Positions 4,465-32,290 of a stretch of 64,000 bases of DNA are shown one piece after another. The notes beneath the pieces were generated by a model that saw nothing but the letters and a program-made list of their open reading frames with translations, had not been told where the DNA came from and made no database searches. Within the stretch, counting starts at the first letter, position 1. Each line of letters starts with the position of its first letter. Source of the DNA: Hoplostethus atlanticus (lineage: Eukaryota > Chordata > Actinopteri > Trachichthyiformes > Trachichthyidae); NCBI GenBank assembly GCA_034670405.1, contig JAXDDX010000178.1, positions 186,001 through 250,000 on the forward strand, read 5' to 3'. Position numbers and translations under genes: made by a program.

Positions 4465-7400
4465 TTAGTCTTGAGACTTGGCTGCTGTCTCCTCGATCCC
4501 ATAAGAGGTCAAGACCTCAGATAAGCGAGTGAAGTAGCTGGAGTCTGGATAACCGTTCCTGAGAAACACAAAGAGAAAGCTGTTTATGTCAGACATATGA
4601 ACTAGTGTTTCTGACCTTTAATGCTGCGGCTCCGTTAGACGAGCCCAGCGGCCTCGCTCACCCTGATTTGCCTCCCTGTAGGCTGGTCTTGTGTGGGATG
4701 CAGTCCCAGGTCACCCTGGCCCCTGCCTCTTTGCCGGTCACAGTGAAGGTGAGTCCCAGCCTGAAGGCTCTCTCCAGCCTGGGCAACAGCTTCCTCGTTC
4801 TGTCACAGAGAGGAAGGTAGGCCTCGAACACGCCACCTTGAAATGGAAACCCAGGAGAAGGGTGACCCCCCTGGTACGACGGAAAGCAAAGAGCACGGTC
4901 ATTAACACTGCCTCCAGGTACAAATGTTAGATAAGATGGTTTTAATAGCATCAATCTAAATGGTTATGTAATTGAATACATTCATTATCTATTTTTTTTA
5001 AAGTAAGCCCCTCACCCCTTGGATACCATCAGGAATGTAGTATGTGATCTTGACGGTGCAGTCCTTGCTGTGACCAAGTAGGCTAATGGGCAGTTCAGAA
5101 TAGCTCATGCTGCCCTGGATTCCTAGGGGCACTGGCTCTGTCTTTGGACAAACCCTGCAGTGGACGTGTACTAGGATCAGGCACTTTGAGCACAAGGTCA
5201 CCCCACACTCTGTCCTCTTCACGGATGCCCCACTTTCCCCACACACACAGATGCCTCCTTGACTTGACCTGGATCCCTCCGGCATCTCTGGTCCTCTGTA
5301 CGGTCTCTTGTCCTTCTGGGTCACGTCTTGATCGGTGTGTACCGCTGTCGGCCCGATGCCATTCATGCGTCTCACGCTTGTATCGTTTCCTTTGGTAGAG
5401 TGGCTGACGAACGTGTCAGTCTTCTGTCCGTCCACCTGCATTGTACCTGCCCTTCTCACTTTCTCCTTAATGACAGGGTCTTTCCTCACTACTGGTAGGC
5501 TAACGGATCCATTCATGAGCTCTGCGTCGCTGCCCCTCCGTCTCTCACTCGAGTCACCTCTTTGGATTGCTTTCCTTTCCTGACCACTACCAGTCGCACA
5601 ATCTCTGCTTCTTTGGTTCTCTAGGTTCTGTCGAGGGTTATCGCTATCATGCAGAGTGGTATTTTGGTCATCGTTCACTTGTGCAGGGGCGGACTTGGAC
5701 TGATTCAAAATGGAAGTAAAGGGGCTTGAGGAGTCCTGCTGTTCAGGTATCTGGACCGATGTTCCAGAAAACACCTCTCTCAGTGCAGCGCCCACCTGAG
5801 AACACAACTCTTCGGGGCCAAGGAGAAATAAGCTATCTTTCAATATCTGGATGGAAACCTTCTTAAACCGGCTGCGCACTTCAGCGCAACACACTTCTAA
5901 GATTTCATCTTCTGGGTCGGACATGCCCATCTCTGACAAAGACAGCACCTGCACACAGAAATCTGCGGTAACCGTGGCCAGCAGCTTCTGTAAACTCAGC
6001 TGACAAGAACTCACTGTGGACGAGTCTACCCCTCTCATGATGACAGTCAGATCGCGGCTAGATTCTGAATCCCTCTCCTTGATCTGCAGATCAGAGGTCA
6101 AGTCTTCCAGCCGAGTGCCATAGACCTCTTTTATGTACAGCCACACCCTCTTGGCAACTGTAAACTCTGCACTATATACTTCCCTCTTGTCCCTCCCTGT
6201 TCGGTTACTGAAGCTAGATGACCTGCCCCTGGCTCTGAGCGTGGACTTCCCAGAGTCCTCTTGACCCCCTTCACCCATAACTTGGGCCTTAGGTCGGGAT
6301 ATCCCTGAGAAACTACTGGCTCGCTTCAAATTGGACCCAAACCCAGTGGGTGGGAGTGCAGTGCTGCCTGACAGATTGGTCTGAGTTGTACTGAGGGGGG
6401 CTGTCGTAACCTTATGTTGACTGTTCACTAATATTGAGTTTATGGAGGATTCATTCTGCATAGTGGTGGATGAAAATGGAGTACCTATACCCTTAAACAA
6501 GATGTCCCCTCCAGTGTTTTGTGCTGCTGCTCTGGAGGGTCCTCCACCAGCAAACCCTGCTGTTTCTGACAGTACGTCATGCCCCAACATGGGACCAAGA
6601 CCTGTTCGTCTACTGGGAGATGAGGCCCCAGGTAAGGAGAAGTCACCTGGTCGAGTCCCTAACCCACCCAACCCTGAGTCTCTAAACCGAGCAGCTAGTT
6701 TATACCTTCTGGTTCCCTCAGCTCTCCTCTCATTCTCATCTGACCTCAGCATCTTATCTGCCCTACCATCCGGTGATCCCGGTACGGAAGACAGGGAGAG
6801 GGTGAGTCTCTCCTCGTCAGCTGGTTTTGATGGCCCCGGGTCAAATGACGGAGATCTAAGAAGACTGGCCACATCCTCGCCTTTACCCCTCACCTCACCG
6901 TTGTCCAAGAGAAAAAACTGCTTGGCCTCAGACACGTCACTACTGCTCCCAATGATATAGATGTTTTGGTCATCTTCATTCAGGAGGAGTTTGGGGAGTC
7001 GGACACCTAACTCCTCCATCGCCCTTTGCAGGCCTCCTCTGGGAGAGAGGATAATCTTAGGTAGCTGAGCTCGGCGGATCTTTGCCTCATTCTCCTGGTA
7101 AAGCCTACTTAGTTCCCCACTTGCCAACTTTAGGCACTCCTGGTCACCACCTACTCCCTCCATCCATGTTGCTCTCTGCAGAAACACAGTGGTCACCCCC
7201 TGAGTGGTCATATCCACCACCTCAACGCCATACTGATTGAGGATATATTGGTACTCCTCTCTACAGTGTTTCTGCAGATACTGGAACAGGTCTGCATCCA
7301 TAATCAGTGAGAAGTCCTCCTCTGCTGTGGGAGGATCCCCGGGAAGCTGCAGAGCCACAGCCCCAACCTCCGTCTGGCCTGTGTCTTTCCAACTGTGACC

Positions 7401-8569
7401 CCCAGGTATCAGGTCTCCACGAGGGCTTGAGCTACGATCCCCAGAAGGTCTGCCTCCGCGAACTTGCTCTGTATGTTCTCTCGACTCCTTAGGTCTCCTG
7501 CCCTGACCTCCCGACTCCTGAGTGTGAGGCCTCTGCTTTGTATGGATAGCCCCGGAGCCACTGGAGGAAGGGTGACCTGTGTCCGTGTGTTCTGCAGATC
7601 CTGGACCTCCAGTAAGCCCAAGCAGTTGTGCCAAAGCAGCCTGGACCTGGGAGTAGGAACCCCTCAGCTTGCACAGTTTCTCTAGAGTGCTATAGTGTAT
7701 CTGAATTTCAGGGTGGGTCTTATTAACGGCTGTCACTGCCGTTCGTCCCAGAGGCAGCTGGCTGTAGTCAACAGTTACTGACATACTCAAGATGACCTAC
7801 AACGAGGAAAGAGGGGGAAATAAAACATTCAACGATTGATGCCCAATATCTCAACAATATTTTTTGTCATATTTTCCATTATTCTGATTATATATATATA
7901 CCTTATCTGGCTCCAGACTTTCGCGATGCTCAGTTAAGGTTAGTTCATGCTTCTTCCCATCCACTTTCAGAATGTGTTGGCCATGTTGAATAACTCTCTG
8001 TGCCACTGTGTGAGTGGGGCCACCAGAGGGAAATCAATTCTCAGTCTGTGAAGCATCCTGACTAAGCGCTTTTACCACTGGCCTCTCCACTGACATGGAT
8101 GCCAACATTCTAGCTCAGTGTAAATCAATAGTGACAGGCAATACAGCACAACACCTTACACTTAATACCTTGCAAATGACTGCAACTAAATTTTACAGTG
8201 GAAATGAGTCACGGATGCGTTCTCGTCCAGTTCTAAGTGAATGTTACCAATTACATGGGCATTATTTTAAGTGTGTGTATCATTTCACCAACATGTCTCT
8301 TGTATAAAATCAAATCACCCTCCCTGTATAAGACTGGACCCCTAGACTTAATATGCACATACATACACACTCTGATCTTACTGACCTCCACTGTCCTCAA
8401 AGGTGACGAGGGCAGAGCCAGGCATCGCCTTGACGATGGTGACAGAGGCCACTTCCCCTCCCCCGTTCCTGGCTCTAAGGAAGTGGATATATAGCTTGTC
8501 TGTCAGCTTGTCATCCTCAACGTCTGTGGGCAGGCCACTCACCCTCACCGTCCAACCCTGCTCTGCCAT
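4465..8569 (-). CDS. RBM43/NID-like and Deltex C-terminal domain fusion protein (putative E3 ubiquitin ligase)
   Basis: Coding exons on the minus strand are 8569-8386, 8005-7902, 7796-5016, 4870-4662 and 4558-4465. All have GT-AG borders and join in frame to 1123 residues. Residues 1 to about 160 resemble the N-terminal RRM/NID-type half of RBM43 and IFI35/NMI proteins (start MAEQGWTVRVSGLP). A second RBM43/KH-like segment lies near residues 260-400, followed by a long serine-rich linker and another KH-like block near 660-800. Residues 948-981 hold a cysteine cluster that looks like a broken RING: CxC at 948/950, then C962, C967, C970, C978 and C981, with Val964 where DTX3L has the zinc-binding His. 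Residues 1016-1116 form a clear Deltex C-terminal domain (YYIPDGIQ, HPSPG, AYLP, HKTS, GYPD). Deltex proteins ubiquitinate targets and recognise ADP-ribose; DTX3L acts with PARP9 in antiviral responses. That this protein does the same is inference. An upstream non-coding exon is inferred at about 9559-9610. Confidence 0.85.
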
Positions 8570-8574: not shown

Positions 8575-9557
8575 GGGTGAAACACAATCAAAGCTGTAAA
8601 TGAATACTGGAGAAATCTGGAATGACTGCATGACTGTCGTTGATCGCAAGAAACAGAAACAGTCTGGTTTCTGCGGTGACAGCGAGAGCAAACTCAAACA
8701 TCCTGATGACTACCAGCCAAAACACAACAACTCCTTATGCAACCTTTTCTTAGCAGAAATTTCAGTATCATGCAACCATTCAACAGGTCTACTCAAACAA
8801 ATTTGGAAGGGTTATGCACATATTTGATAACATAACACCCTCTGTTGGGGGTTGCTAGGACACTACATCAACATAATAAAAAAATGTCCAAGACAGCTAT
8901 CATCACCAATAAGGCTCATGTGTTGTTTAAAGCATTGCAAGCCTACGTATGGATAATTATGGATAATAAAATTGCTACTTACTCTTAACAAAGTGTCTTC
9001 TCTGATCCCTCTCTACCTGTTTCTTTGAAAGATTAACGATGGGCTAAACTGGTGTATCTTTCCTGATCTCACAGCCATGATTATGTTGTATACAATTGTG
9101 GGCTGATTCTGTATTTTCACAGAAAAGCTAAATTTCTTGTTCCCTCTTTTGGTGCAAATCACCATGTGGAAGTTGATGCAAATATGGATTTTCTGTACCG
9201 AAACGCCCCTGTTTCCTCGACTCATGTGCAACCTACAGTTTGCTGCTATCTTAATGGCAACTGGTTGAAAAAAACTAAACTGGTACAAAAACTATTTTAA
9301 CTTTCTTGACTAACGCATAAATCCACCCATCCCTCTAGATTGTATGCTGGAAATTTACTGCTACAGCATGTCAATAAACGGATGTAGAAGCGAAAAGGAA
9401 AGCTACAGTGCAGAGTAGAGCTTCAAGGAAGTGCAAAAATCAGTCACATCTAAACTGACAATCTGCTTATCTTACTCTCGCCGTATCAGGGCTTGTTTCT
9501 AAGCTCTAAGGAGTTAACATTTGTATCATCTTTTTGATTGCGTTCTCTTGATCTTAC

Positions 9558-9618
9558 CTTACAAATCGTTCACCCCCTTTCACTCAGTGATCGTCGCACT
9601 TCAACACAAAACATGGAA
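9558..9618 (-). other. Inferred non-coding exon 1 of the Deltex-like gene
   Basis: A strong donor (AAG/GTAAGA on the minus strand) ends at 9558, about 990 bases upstream of the coding exon acceptor. An IRF-type site lies just above it. The exon has a short out-of-frame ATG followed by a stop, a possible small uORF. The true 5' end is a guess. Confidence 0.45.
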
Positions 9619-9632
9619 GAAAAGTGAAAGTA
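9619..9632. promoter_or_regulatory. IRF/ISRE-like element
   Basis: GAAAAGTGAAAGTA contains the IRF core AANNGAAAG and closely resembles ISRE and PRDM1 sites. It lies directly upstream of the inferred first exon of the Deltex-like gene, whose relatives (DTX3L, PARP9, IFI35) are known interferon-induced genes. Interferon control here is inferred. Confidence 0.5.
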
Positions 9633-9661
9633 AAAAATGATTGTGCGGTGTGTCGTGTTGT

Positions 9662-10024: not shown

Positions 10025-10619
10025 CTAGAGGAGATGTTTCATGTGTTTTACTGCCTACGTCGATTCTGGTGGAGGTCACACACATCTAACTAAACCTGAG
10101 GTGAGTGCTAATATGAGGCGTGCTCGTATCATTGAGTATATTTAATTGAGTAATCATAACCTCATCAGATAACAGATAATAACGCCATGAATACGATGCA
10201 TTCATGAAATCTGTTATTACTACATTTTACGCGAGTGTTGAGTAACTAAATGTGAGCGTTAGTCCATTTGCGTGAGCACTGGAAGATACGTGCGTGCAGT
10301 TATCTTGCTAGTTCGATCTGTAACGTTATGACACCAGCTTGCCTATGGTTTAAGTAATTATTTAACGTTTTATATATGACTTACATGTCGCCAACCCTAG
10401 GCCATAGAAATTGGTTTAGTTAGCCGGCGAGCTAACGTTAGCTAGCATCTTCAGCCTTGGCATCACTCAGCCCAAGGCCAAAGCCAAACTGTTACTTGAG
10501 GCTTAAAGGCCAAACAGCATATAGCTGCCAAATGGACTGTAGTTTAGCATGAGAGTGTAGCTGTGTATAACTAACGTTTCAACCTCCTGCTTAATTTTCA
10601 GTGTCACTGGATTGCTGTC

Positions 10620-12330
10620 ATGGCGAAACTGTTTGAGTCCATTGGGAAGTTGGGGCTGGCCCTTGCCGTCGGTGGAGGTGTTGTGAACTCCGCCCTTTTC
10701 AATGGTGAGTGCTGGTCAATTGATCCCTTCAATAGGTTAGCCTCTCGTCGTTTTTTTTACTTATCAGATACCTTAAAAGAAATGTAAAGCTAGGGTACTG
10801 TTAAAACGTTTGATGACCATTATAATGCTTTACACTGTAAAAGGAAGCTATATGCAGCGAACCTAACTATATCCTTCTCGACACAGTTGATGCAGGGCAT
10901 CGTGCAGTGATATTTGACAGGTTCCGGGGAGTGCAAGAGGAGGTTGTTGGTGAAGGCACCCACTTTCTCATTCCCTGGGTTCAGAAACCTATCATCTTTG
11001 ATTGCCGTTCCCGTCCACGCAATGTGCCTGTCACCACAGGCAGCAAAGGTACAACAATAATCTAATGAACAATAGCTGTCCTGTCTACTTTATTTTTTGC
11101 TCATACACATTCTGTCTCTCTCACATGCATCTCAGTGATTTCCCATAGATGCACATGGGCCTTAAGGGTTCACCTGGGGTACAACTAACATCCTGGCAAT
11201 GCTATCATTTTTTTTATGTTGAGACAACTATTGTGGTCATGGCTAATATCCCAAGCTAACAACATGAAATAGATGAAATCTTTTGGGTTGAACTCTAACA
11301 CTCTATGACCACCATTAGTGTGTTCATTTACTTTTCTTAACTGAGACACTTATCTGCAGTCTGACCTCTTTATCCTTGAAACATCCACCCTACAGATCTG
11401 CAGAATGTAAACATCACACTGCGTATCCTCTTCCGGCCGGTATCTAACCAGCTCCCACACATCTTCACCAGTATCGGAGAGGACTATGATGAGAGAGTGC
11501 TACCATCTATCACCATAGAGGTCCTGAAGGCGGTAGTGGTGTGTATCAGACAAAAAGAGGGATTATACAGAAACGGGCACAACTAGTTTTGTTTAGCGAG
11601 CTGCTAAACGGACTTGTATAAACCATTCCTGTCTTTTGTGTGTGTCACAGGCTCGGTTTGATGCCGGTGAGCTCATCACCCAGAGAGAGCTGGTGTCTCG
11701 GCAGGTCAGTGAGGACCTGACAGAAAGAGCCTCTACCTTTGGCCTCATCTTGGATGACGTTTCACTGGTATGATCCTTGTTGGTAAAACTGTTTTAACAC
11801 AGTCCAGATTATCTTGTTTGTGGGCTTTTAATGGAGTAATCTTTAATCGTGTTTTTACAACAGACACACTTGACCTTCGGCAAGGAATTCACAGAGGCTG
11901 TGGAGATGAAGCAGGTGGCCCAGCAGGAGGCTGAGAGGGCCCGTTTCGTGGTAGAAAAGGTAATGTTTGTGTCTGACAGTAGTAGCCACCAACTATTATC
12001 TCCACGCCCCTCGTGCGGTCAAAAATTAGTGTGCAGTCCCTGGTGGGATGGGGGACGTTTATAACACAATGTTATTGTGGATACTAGCTTACCAGTTCTT
12101 CCTTTCATCTTTTCCAGGCGGAGCAGCAGAAGCAGGCAACCATCATCTCTGCAGAGGGAGATTCTCAGGCTGCCTTGCTCATCGCCAACTCCCTGATGGA
12201 GGCTGGAGATGGTCTGGTAGAGCTACGTAAGCTGGAGGCAGCTGAGGACATCGCTTTCCAGCTATCCCGCTCCCGAAACGTCACTTACCTGCCCTCAGGC
12301 CAGGGCACGTTGCTACAGTTGCCCCAGTGA
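10620..12330 (+). CDS. phb1: Prohibitin 1
   Basis: Coding exons are 10620-10704, 10887-11048, 11396-11538, 11651-11767, 11864-11959 and 12118-12330. They join to 271 residues, against about 272 in human. A non-coding first exon ends at 10100. The protein starts [20 protein letters not shown], a hydrophobic N-terminal anchor, followed by the SPFH/prohibitin domain ([17 protein letters not shown]-type region, [24 protein letters not shown]) and a C-terminal coiled coil ([16 protein letters not shown] to [14 protein letters not shown]). It ends QGTLLQLPQ, almost as in mammals. Prohibitin 1 forms ring complexes with prohibitin 2 in the inner mitochondrial membrane and acts as a scaffold and chaperone. 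It is transcribed away from the Deltex-like gene through a shared promoter region. Nothing is broken or missing. Confidence 0.98.
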
Positions 12331-14342: not shown

Positions 14343-17300
14343 GTAAGCCAGCAAACCGATACAAAATCTTACTATGTAACTTATTTTATATATTTACATA
14401 TATGACAATCGTGGACGATGCTAGAAAAAACAAATGTATATCACCAGTAGATAGCTGCCATAGCTATGGTGTGAATTGTCCGTGAGCCCAGCTAGCATTG
14501 ACTTTCTGACAGAGTCGAGTCCAGTGGGTTTGTCAGCACAGCAGTCTGGTTTTTGTTAGGAAAGCGGCGCTTTTCATCTTGCACGACAAGCTAGCCTGCT
14601 AACGAAGCTTGACATCGGATTTTCATGTATGTTCAGGTGCATCAAATAATTGTCACTGTCTCACATGAAAGTACAACATGGGCTTTGCGTATAACGTTAA
14701 CCCAAATATTTAACGTGAATGCTAGCTATAAGCTAACTAGCCATAATCTGGGCGGATTTGGCTTTTTAAAAAAAGTGAAAGTCCTTTAGCTGTTGTTAGC
14801 TAATGCGAGTCAGCTAACACTAGTCTTTTGGTGCAAGGTAACATTGTTTTTGAGGCTCTGTAACGTCAATTGTATTACAATCTGTCATGGCTGCACCTAA
14901 GGCTAATGTAGCCAAAGTTAGCTTGTCATGTGTGAGCAGCTTACTATCTATCGAGTATTGCTAGCTAGCTAACTAGCCTAAGTTGGCCAGGCCTGCCTAC
15001 TGTTACTGTTCTCCAGTCTACAATGTTGCCTTTTCTGTTTTAACCCTTTCTTTGCTTCACACACTACAGCGTCAACTACAACGTATTGTAGCTGAAGAGC
15101 TTGCCCTCTACCAGCTGTAAACGTTTTTTAGACCAGTCGATAAAGTAACTGCTACACCATATCTCATGTTTAATCTAACTGTTGTGTAGTTTGGGATTTA
15201 CACCTAGTAACGTTGTTGTTGACGGAGATAAAAAGCCTTGGACGAGCTGGTCCTTCCAAGTCGCAGCCTATATCACAAAACCTGTTTTACTTTGCATAAT
15301 CTGTAAAGGAAACTGTGGTATTTGTTTTTATTCTTGTTTCGTTTTTAAATAATCATGTTTCAGTATTTGTCTACAAACAAAATCTGTACACAGTGCAGAC
15401 ATCATCTGCATGTAGAATGCTATCCTTGTTATCTTTAGTATTGAGATGTCCCTGGTAGTGAAAAAGCAGGCCACTTTATTAATGGTCAGTCTTCACAATC
15501 TGTCTCGCTGTGTAGTGACTAGAATACACATATTTGATATAGGAGGGCATAGAAGTGAGATAATAATCTGCACTTTGTCTATGATACCTCAGACTGTCTA
15601 TACTGGACTAGGACCAGGTAGTGCTCTATAACCCAACTAGAGGCTTGAGGGCCAAATACCTACAGAGGCACGGAGCACTCCTGCAGTGCACCACACAGTG
15701 AGCTGGTTAAGGTCTTATGAGTTTGGATGGAGTTAGGAATGTGAACCCTCACACGTTTCTCTCAAAGCTGTGAAAGGGAAAGCTCATTAAAGTCTAGACT
15801 GAAAGGGAGCATGGATTTGAGGAGCAGTGCTATATAATATAAGGTAAAAGTGGTGTATATGACTGCTTCAAAGGCCTCACCTGCTTTACTGTGACAGTTT
15901 AGCTAAGCACTTGCTAACACATGCCATTACTTTGAATGTTTGTGTAGCTTTTCTCTCAGTAAAGCTACCATCCTGTGTCATTCAAATCTAAGCCTGAGTA
16001 GCATCTATCCGGTGTATGACATCCAGGCTTTGTGCGATGTCCTATAATAGTGGTTTGGCTGCTCGTTCTCTCTATGAAGCATGATTGAAGAAGGTTTGAT
16101 ATTGTGGATTAGACTGGGATTTCTTGGCCAAAGAGTTGCTGAGCATTAGTAATGCTGTAGATTATTGAAATTGACTGTTGTAGGGAGCTACATTGATATG
16201 CTGGTAGTGTTGTCTTTCTACTTTTTTTTGCCAGGGGGCAAAGTTCATCTTTTGAAAGCTGTCCAAACTGAAAAAGGCAGTGCCAAACGATCATCATTCC
16301 ACTAGCTTTGACCTCAAGATCTGACAAGGTGATTGTGTTGGCTAATTACCACTGATATTGAGAAGTCTGCTCTCTACTTCCTTCCACATCAAAGGACCGT
16401 GTTATTTCACTGTGAGTGAAACTCTGAAATGACTCATCGATAATGATAAGCGGGTGGAAGGATTTTACTAAACATGGGTTACATAACCACGCTGCATGTT
16501 TGTGTGTATGCGTGCGTATGTTTTTGACAATTTTAAGCGTTTGTGAATTTATCACTCTGGATCAGTTTGTTAATAGTACGAACAACACAACAAAGTTGTG
16601 TAAACTAAGATTAGCTATCATATAATTTTATGCTCAGTAATATTTGTTTATATCTGCCCATGTCTAGACCCAGCATTTGCTTATAAGAGTAGGTTTAGCC
16701 CATCAGAAGCAGCCGATGGCAAAGAGCAGTTGGGCTCAGGCAATGGTTTCTCATGCACCTTATATTATTCTGTCATCCATACACAGGATAATCTATTAGA
16801 CTTTGTGTCTAACGCAGCCATGTGAGTTGAGTTGCTCTGTCAGTGCAGAGCTCGCCCTCCCCCTGACTAATGCTCTCAGAGCTGCTGTCCAATTCTCAGA
16901 AAGGATCAGAGTCAGCACGCACAGGAAGACAGGTGTGTGTCTGCATGTGCGTAACCTCATGCAAAGTTGATAAACTAAATGATTCATTCATGTTTGCCTG
17001 TTCTGTTAGCATAGCACATATGTGGCTGCAACTTGGTAATAACTGCCTCCATTCCTGTATGCTTATTATCCTCCAGCAAGATCAAGGAATAGGAAGAATA
17101 AGAGACTCCGTTTAGGACTCATTGAGAAAGGTTGAGCTAAACTCGTGCATGTTATTATTGTGATGAGTTGAAACTGGATTTGTAATTAGGGTGGCTTGGT
17201 GGTGTATAGCACATACCATGTAATCCCATGGTGAATCTGGCTCTCATCATTTGTCACGTCACCCCCCCCCCCCCCCCCCCCTCGCTCTGTCTCTCTCGCT

Positions 17301-29301: not shown

Positions 29302-32290
29302 ACTATGCTCCAGGCCTGCCAGCCCACACCTCGTTCCTCCTCTTCTCATACTTGGTCCTGCCTCAGTCTCTTACCTGCAAGGCCTCTATTGTAGGGGAGC
29401 TCTTCTAAGACAGATTTTGTGTGTGTGTGTGTGTGTGTGAGTGTGTGTGAGTGTGAGAGAGTAAGTACATGCTTTAGCTAAGAGCTTAGAAACCCCCAGT
29501 CAAGTGACATAGATTTTACTTTTTATTTTCTTGAACATACTCTTAGGAAATCTGCAGAAAACAATTAGTAGAATTCCTATCACCATTGGTAGGAATGATG
29601 TTTGTGAGTTCTCCACCTGCACATTCATGGGTGTTCCTGTAAAGTATATCCTCTTCATCAATGGCTGCTGATGGAAGTCGACGTATGCATTACCTGGGCT
29701 GAGTAGATCTGTTTCATCCAACTCTATTCTTAATGTCAAGTTGGCTTATGGTTGCACATTGGTCAGGGTTATTGTTTTGTGTGCAAGTCCTCCCCACAGT
29801 AGTACTCTGCTTGTCCTGCCAGTTGTACTGCAGAGCCTTGGGCTTCACAGGTTATGTATGATGAATGTTGTAACTGGTTCTGTCTGAGCCTCTTTCCTTT
29901 GGCCCAGGCTGGAGCTTTCAGTCCTCATAGGGTCAACAGCAGTAGTCCAAGACGCAGTGCCATAGATAACAGTAAGGGGAATGTTGTTTTGTTTTTTTTA
30001 AGACTCCTTTTAAAAAAATAAAAATTAAAAAAAATGTGTAAATGGTTACTTGGATCTAGGCATAGTCTGAGATTCATGTGATGGTTTCATGGTGCTTTCC
30101 ATTCCAGTACTTCATATAGATCTTACTTTCGCTTTTCCATTTGAATTTCACAGCATTTTGTTATTACAAAATAACAGTGTATTGTGTCATATAGGAGTGT
30201 AACATGTCTAGCTAGCCTGGTTTTTATAGGTTATACGGTTGGACTAGAAATGTTGTGAGCAAAGTTCTGCAGGATATGCCCCAGGCACTCTCCCTTACAC
30301 CTACTCAACCACATACTTGCACACACACAGATTCTGTATGGTCACTTATCTACTTAGTTTGATCAATTAAACCTCAGCCTTGAGTCCTGTTGGTCAACTG
30401 ATGCTTTTAGATAAGAAATGACTGTCAAATACTGCCACTGTGAGGGGCCAGGCATATGGCCCCATCTGGATTTCTCTCTCGCTTGACCCCACCTTCCTCT
30501 GCTGCTGTCAAATTGATACGGGTTACTATGTTAAAGGTCATTTGACGTAACAAAGTACACAGACTTAGGACCTTTTTCATCACAGTTCTTAACAGACAAT
30601 TATGCATTTTCCGATCAGCCTGTATTCCACTGTTTGGTGTGGGGCTTGTTTGTAATCTAAAGGTTTTTTATTTTCCTCATACTACACCCCCACTGACATA
30701 CTTTGATACACACAGGCAAAGACATGTCAAAACGTGTTGAATGTTGCCTACCCGTAATGATGGCACAGCCTAGATGCTTTTAATCCCCCATGTCTTGATG
30801 TTGCTCTGCTCCGTTTTAAACTAACGACTGGTTCTCTGAGGTAGATGTACTGTTGCTAGCACATCATAGGAAATGTCAGAGGATAAAAGGCAACGGTTAT
30901 ACACTTTCTAATACTTAAAATTATTGTATAGATAAGCATAAATGTAATCACGTCAGTGCAAGAAATTACATTTATTGATGTAATGTCCGATCGTGTGAAT
31001 GTCATTTGTTGAAAAGGAGCGGAAAAGGCTGGCAAGTATTTTGACTGGTTTATGGTTGCTTGATGGGAGTGGGTTGTTACCCCCTCACCCAGTCTCAGAC
31101 TGTTATTAGTGTTTAGGAACGGCATTGAGCTTTGTTCCTGTGTGTGAGAGCGAGAGAGAGAGTATGTGTGTCTCTACCAGTTTGTCTGGTTGTCCCCGGT
31201 GCTCTTGTACCAAAAGCTGCTTTTACACAGTCTGCCCCAATATTTGTGTATTAGGGGATACCAGAGATGGACCATTGCAGTAAATTTAGCACGACCCTCT
31301 ATCTACCGCCCTGTGACGGTATTTGGTCCTGGAGTGGTTAAACTCAGTAGCCTAGATGTCCCTCCTCGTTTGAGACCTACAACTATCCTGCCATTTCTGT
31401 GGGTCTTAATACCCCCTGCGTTTGCTTGTCAACCTGTCCCCTCTGGTTCACTACTGTGCTGCGACATTTTGCAGTATGGATATTTTTGTCTTTTTTTTAA
31501 TTTTTTTTGTGTTCATTTTAAAGCCTTTTCATTTGTGTGTATCCTCTGCACTTTACTGCTGCGTGGGTGAGGCGCAGGGAAGGGAGGGACTGACAATGCA
31601 TTGTGGAAGAGAGTGAAGTTTTGGCTGCATGTGAGGGTGGTAGTGATTTTAATTTGGTGAGTGGATGTTTTTAAGCAAGGAAAAGGAGGAGAATCCCAAG
31701 TGGAGGTGGATAGTGTGGAAGGGACCATAGCAAACAAAGGACATTTCTTCTAGTCTGTGCATATGTTTTATTTCTACTTTTTAAAAGAAATATGCTTTTG
31801 CTCCAGTATGGACCCCCCTCAAAGTGTGAAAGTGATGTTCCTCCTGCTTTGGCAATTTTACACTAGCCCCTCCAAGCTTCATCATACCTTCTGTTGGCCG
31901 GTGTTCTCAGAGTTTCTTCTGCCGTGTCCTGTTATTTCCTTGTTTGCTGTATGATTCTCCTCCTTTTTTCTTTGTTGTATAGAATGCACTTTCTACTAAA
32001 ATTCTTGGCTAGTTAAGAAAAAATAACATTGTATATTCTTTAAAGATGTTTTAAAAAAAATCAATATACTTTTCCCCTTTGTATTTTTAACCACTTAATG
32101 TAGCATTGCGTATTTTATTATTGTATCTGGTACAAAATGTGCAGCTTTATAATGTCCTGGGTTGTCTTTATTTTTTTTGTATGTTTTCTGGAGGTTGAGG
32201 AGAAGTGGAAATGAAATGTTGGGCCTTTTTTGATAATGTACATTTAACTGCTAACTTTGAGAAGTAAAAACAAGTAGCCATGATTATCAC
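29302..32290 (+). other. znf652: znf652 3' UTR
   Basis: No gene is seen. A GT-rich tract lies at 29417-29459 and an AATAAA at 30017-30022. AT-rich sequence resembling a distal 3' UTR continues to about 32270, where variant signals such as AGTAAA occur. Long and short UTR forms are both possible. The mammalian gene also has a long 3' UTR. Confidence 0.5.

Follow-up and report, generated by a model that had tools for sequence, protein, structure and literature searches.

The 64,000-nt stretch of the Hoplostethus atlanticus genome analysed here (contig JAXDDX010000178.1, positions 186,001 to 250,000; the window) carries on its minus strand a gene whose predicted protein has the domain order of the ubiquitin ligase DTX3L, and in which the residues that DTX3L requires for catalysis in its Deltex C-terminal (DTC) domain are replaced. 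Five exons, separated by four GT-AG introns, join into one frame of 3372 nt that encodes 1123 residues and a stop. Exon 1 (8386..8569) begins with the ATG and encodes residues 1-61, the first two thirds of an RRM of IFI35/NMI type, as indicated by its splice sites, by NID and RRM_PARP14 matches and by PDB matches to NMI and IFI35; exon 2 (7902..8005; residues 62-96) completes the RRM and is defined by its splice sites and by the conserved junction with exon 1. The long exon 3 (5016..7796; residues 97-1023), placed by splice sites and by the AlphaFold2 model of an orthologue, contains the KH-like domains, disordered linkers, a zinc-type module and the start of the DTC domain, of which exon 4 (4662..4870) encodes the middle and exon 5 (4465..4558) the end, together with the stop codon. 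The splice borders and the single 1123-residue frame match exactly those given in a preliminary description of this locus, confirming that the gene with its single long frame is real.

A homologue search returned 203 proteins at E<=1e-3; the row counts given below rest on the best 120 of these, the matches listed. The best of them, P0001, an uncharacterised protein of Centroberyx gerrardi, is 73% identical across 100% of the query, a likeness well beyond chance. Judging by the homologues, the window is nuclear DNA of fish type. Among the matches listed, full-length counterparts occur in many teleosts, many homologues bear the name si:busm1-163l24.3, and, within the limited reach of the search, every named and recognised species is a teleost. 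The related uncharacterised fish proteins that the preliminary description had expected in databases are thus widespread among these matches, and most are indeed annotated as uncharacterised. Our literature search, which took in few subscription-journal papers, returned nothing on si:busm1-163l24.3 or on pseudo-ligase Deltex proteins, and no published report of replaced catalytic residues in a DTX3L-like fish protein. One listed protein, P0095 (Lampris incognitus), has no DTC end and carries a precomputed Pfam PF17921 annotation; it is possibly a mis-annotated or rearranged model.

Across the four protein junctions, taken in exon order, 99/100, 100/102, 101/103 and 98/100 covered rows are gap-free over 20 residues. 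The preliminary description had relied on the joining of the N-terminal exons to the 5016-7796 exon, and this joining is seen in homologues of 'lgn' source, of which 26 are listed: 12 have the N-terminus and the DTC domain in one uninterrupted frame (11 assigned by a scripted RRM pattern, and P0062 by eye). Since the 11 pattern-matched contigs are 3.4-4.2 kb long with only 267-952 nt of non-coding sequence, the full-length 'lgn' contigs look, judging by their lengths, like spliced transcripts. The remaining 14 'lgn' proteins have no DTC domain; 12 of these (counted by eye) read through the exon 3 donor at 5016 (GIQ.V...), as would be expected of unspliced genomic DNA, and one of the 14, P0093, begins in exon 2. 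An annotation error that combines N- and C-terminal exons of different transcripts is hardly credible as the source of the long model; the isoform models P0033, P0044 and P0105 do lack the RRM, but the 12 contigs with both ends in frame and the conserved junctions speak against it. In these three models (from Polymixia, Siniperca and Hypomesus) translation starts in a different frame of exon 1 and continues directly into exon 3, which leaves out exon 2 and hence the RRM; the alternative frame (8463-8386, minus strand) is open in the window too, where it has no ATG.

Pfam, the AlphaFold2 models and fold comparison together give the order RRM, KH-like 1, KH-like 2-3, KH-like 4-5, zinc-type module and DTC. 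Above the Pfam cut-offs, the window protein matches NID (55 bits), RRM_PARP14_1 (34), RRM_PARP14_3 (32.5) and DTC (91). KH_DTX3L (PF21718) matches residues 262-390 with 15.3 bits, below the cut-off of 27.4; among orthologues, the same family scores 27.8 bits in P0008, above the cut-off, and 21.5 and 16.8 bits in P0130 and P0102, below it, while the Pfam scan lists no KH_DTX3L match for P0081, P0050 and P0128. A precomputed PF21718 annotation is present in some listed orthologues. AlphaFold2, run on P0001 with 102 sequences, gave a mean predicted local distance difference test score (pLDDT) of 61.5, with 523 residues below 50; its confident islands are the RRM (1-90), KH-like 1 (~97-155), KH-like 2-3 (256-396), KH-like 4-5 (613-753), a small module (~940-976) and the DTC domain (~985-1114), and ~490 residues at pLDDT <50 fall in three linkers. 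The KH-like middle blocks of the preliminary description are thereby borne out. In the window, KH-like 1 (7614..7796, minus strand; residues ~97-157) has the modelled topology E-H-E-E-H at a pLDDT of ~90; KH-like 2-3 lies at 6897..7319 (residues ~256-396; AlphaFold2 and KH_DTX3L), and KH-like 4-5 at 5763..6185 (residues ~634-774), where most of the P0001 model exceeds a pLDDT of 90. The predicted-disordered linker at 397-612 of P0001 (window ~6896-6186, minus strand) contains short motifs conserved across teleosts (YKLAARFKDSGL, GPMLGHDVLSE, NTG.DILFK, LKRSSSFSG and RSSSF) and is more conserved than the other two linkers, with 25/216 columns at least 95% uniform.

This order is that of human DTX3L (BBAP), the E3 ligase partner of PARP9, which is described as RRM 1-95, KHL1 130-200, KHL2-3 230-365 and KHL4-5 366-540, followed by RING and C-terminal domain (PMC11080071), with the RING position taken in the fish protein by the altered zinc-type module. 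KH1 and KH3 of human DTX3L are each one helix short (PMC10810221), a feature that the fish model shares in its KHL1 and KHL3. The fish protein is longer (1123 vs 740 residues), with ~490 residues in the three low-confidence linkers. PARP14 and PARP10 also combine an RRM with KH-like regions, but the fish protein has no macrodomain, WWE or ART match in Pfam.

The RRM itself resembles IFI35 and NMI. NID (PF07292) scores 55 bits against a cut-off of 25, solved NMI and IFI35 domains in the PDB match the RRM (NMI with 54.3 bits by profile), and among 783 candidates 13 of the 16 matches at E<=1 are IFI35 proteins, the nearest non-orthologous sequences at 60-77 bits; one of these, P0144, is unnamed and was recognised by its IFI35 domain set, and the other three matches are pieces of orthologues. 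In profile comparison, hhalign pairs residues 4-88 of P0001 with one full IFI35 RRM (probability 98.4, 35% identity) and parts of the fish RRM with two further IFI35 stretches (probability 95.6 each); nothing credible in the IFI35 profile comparison aligned to KH-like 1 of P0001. The likeness ends with the single domain: where IFI35 and NMI would call for two NID/RRM units and an IFP_35_N start, the fish model has one RRM followed by KH-like 1 and a large C-terminal part, and Pfam finds no IFP_35_N in it, whereas the IFI35 protein P0136 does carry this family. Among the sequences compared, which include neither a DTX3L N-terminus nor RBM43, the RRM appears closest to IFI35/NMI. The RRM/NID-type start of the preliminary description is supported by these searches; of the three relatives it named, IFI35 and NMI stand, and RBM43 is absent from the 16 matches in a search that needs shared 5-residue words and involves no direct RBM43 comparison. 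The length range of the 783 candidates should presumably include RBM43.

The preliminary description took the protein for a union of RBM43 and DTX3L, which mammals have as distinct proteins, and an RBM43/NID gene fused, recently or in fish only, to the ligase end of DTX3L and working as a sensor-ligase would account for an IFI35/NMI-like RRM and a DTC domain in one frame. We consider it very improbable: human DTX3L itself combines RRM, five KH-like domains, RING and DTC (PMC11080071, PMC10810221), RBM43 is not among the 16 matches at E<=1, and the catalytic residues are lost, as set out below. Because human DTX3L already has this domain order, we read the fish protein as a DTX3L-type paralogue, although a swap of the RRM alone may have occurred, no DTX3L N-terminus having been compared. 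What remains of the preliminary description is one protein, widespread in fish, with an IFI35/NMI-like RRM, a KH-like middle and a Deltex end. A further reading is that of a protein serving mainly as an RNA or single-stranded DNA sensor: nucleic acid would be bound by the RRM and the KH-like domains, with the C-terminal part left as a structural remnant or as a pocket turned to another ligand. This we regard as unlikely; the RRM's nearest relatives are IFI35 and NMI, whose nucleic-acid binding lies outside the present comparison, and the human KH-like domains have no GXXG and serve protein contacts (PMC11080071).

The Deltex C-terminal domain of the preliminary description is well borne out: residues 990-1115 (4492..5117, minus strand, spread over exons 3-5) match Pfam DTC (PF18102) with 91 bits, and DTX1, DTX2 and DTX3L in the PDB. 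The fish DTC shares with DTX3L its fold and the absence of the 2-residue insertion of DTX1/2, and differs in one loop that is 3 residues shorter and in the three residues that DTX3L requires: H707, Y719 and E733 are replaced by P1082 (codon 4696-4694, exon 4), N1094 (4557-4555, exon 5) and V1108 (4515-4513, exon 5), respectively. Among the listed homologues, position 707 is P in 103/103 covering rows and His in none, position 719 is Y or H in 0/100, and position 733 is E in 0/101, while the DTC domain itself stays conserved. According to PMC7615817, the His/Glu pair (H582/E608 in DTX2, H707/E733 in DTX3L) is strictly conserved across the DTX family; in the fish protein it has given way to P1082 and V1108. 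As every listed homologue that spans these positions has other residues there, the proposed sensor-ligase role becomes doubtful. Relative to the RING-DTC structures of DTX1 and DTX2 (6y5n, 6y5p, 6y22, 6y2x, 6y3j), the fish protein lacks the catalytic pair and has an altered RING pattern. DTX1 and DTX2 also carry WWE, a family without a Pfam match in the fish protein.

At the RING position lies a Cys/His module that went unmentioned in the preliminary description (5148..5249, minus strand; residues 946-979), C946-x-C948-x11-C960-x4-C965-x2-C968-x4-H973-x2-C976-x2-C979. Across homologues the pattern is C-x(1-2)-C-x(9-13)-C-x4-C-x2-C-x(3-4)-H-x2-C-x2-C, and the C-x-C form is found in 115/132 proteins; the 17 misses include fragments, models without the region, and C-x2-C variants, among them P0059, P0097, P0115, P0125 and P0126. 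In a canonical RING (C3HC4 or C3H2C3) the fourth ligand is usually His; this His, present in DTX3L, is lost from the fish protein, the position being A or V in 108/113 covered rows and His in 0/113. Fold comparison gives a weak RING likeness, a Pfam scan of the window protein finds no RING family, and profile matches to RINGs in the PDB are insignificant (best E 0.1). The lost His, the Pfam result and the insignificant PDB matches argue against an active lysine E3, in which the altered module would bind ubiquitin-charged E2 (E2~Ub) and the DTC domain would only present substrates without its His/Glu pair, and we consider such an enzyme rather unlikely.

We suggest instead, giving it about an even chance, that si:busm1-163l24.3 is a teleost DTX3L-type paralogue that has lost DTC catalysis and serves the PARP9/DTX3L network as a pseudo-ligase scaffold; rather than a new fusion, the protein is probably a conserved partner without enzymatic activity. 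It has kept the DTX3L chassis (RRM, five KH-like domains, zinc-type module at the RING position, DTC), but the DTC residues by which the 3' hydroxyl of ADP-ribose or nucleic acid is activated are gone, so that neither ADP-ribose nor single-stranded nucleic acid would be ubiquitylated by it. In human DTX3L, RRM-KHL1 mediates dimerisation and KHL4-5 (D4) binds PARP9 and PARP14 (PMC11080071); because of this, the fish protein could join PARP9/PARP14 complexes, multimerising through RRM-KHL1, binding partners of PARP9/PARP14 type with the later KH-like domains, and modulating catalytic DTX3L or competing with it in a network linked to interferon, as adaptor or competitor. More tentatively, and at somewhat less than an even chance, these proteins may form a conserved, catalytically dead teleost class of Deltex proteins, whose DTC pocket has been rewired, is kept under constraint and binds a new ligand or partner, providing a built-in antagonist or adaptor of DTX3L/PARP9/PARP14.

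Several points weigh against this proposal. E1107, one residue before position 733, could in principle substitute for the missing glutamate, H1083, adjoining P1082, is retained, and the loop right after the IPHKT stretch has a pLDDT <50 in both models, so the geometry of the active site is not fixed. Recruitment of E2~Ub by the zinc-type module is still conceivable, and with it the ubiquitylation of lysines. In phmmer searches with the DTC domain, DTX3L (65 bits) is not the best match, behind DTX1 (73) and DTX2 (69); because the DTC sequence alone favours DTX1, the assignment to DTX3L rests on the domain order and a weak KH_DTX3L match. KHL5 of the fish model is also one helix short, unlike the human description. 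The binding of PARP9 has been placed at D3 of DTX3L (PMC10955461), in conflict with the D4 of PMC11080071, and the scaffold partners are in any case inferred from the human protein. The lack of ligase activity and the binding of partners are likewise predictions from sequence and models, and the link to interferon, drawn from one short upstream motif and family resemblance, is suggestive.

If the proposal is true, an orthologous group in which the pair is replaced and the DTC domain conserved would separate the non-enzymatic roles of this domain from its chemistry. Fish virologists would also gain a concrete candidate for a regulator of the PARP9/DTX3L response, and the database name "RING-type E3 ubiquitin transferase" for such homologues would come into question.

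Some 1 kb 5' of the ATG, AAAAGTGAAAGT (9620..9631, plus strand) matches the IRF-site consensus RAAASYGAAASY and is a suggestive candidate site. Three matches to this consensus occur in the 64 kb, against 0.36 expected, a number reached by 1/100 shuffles; the other two lie at 14771-14782 (plus strand) and 30125-30136 (minus strand). The site is followed by a donor-like TGTAAG/GTAAGA near 9557 on the minus strand, and the region 9557-9640 is a possible interferon-type promoter with a non-coding first exon. Infected trout leukocytes regulate genes annotated as DTX3L (PMC11258392), loci not linked here to the si:busm1-163l24.3 gene.

Head to head with the DTX3L-like gene lies a prohibitin-like gene (10575-12330, plus strand), with its start in the frame 10575-10787 and a Band_7 match at 10841-11065; the two genes likely share their upstream region. 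We take this neighbour to be phb1. Beyond it follow C2H2 zinc-finger exons, a PHOSPHO-type phosphatase (Put_Phosphatase) and EFTUD2.
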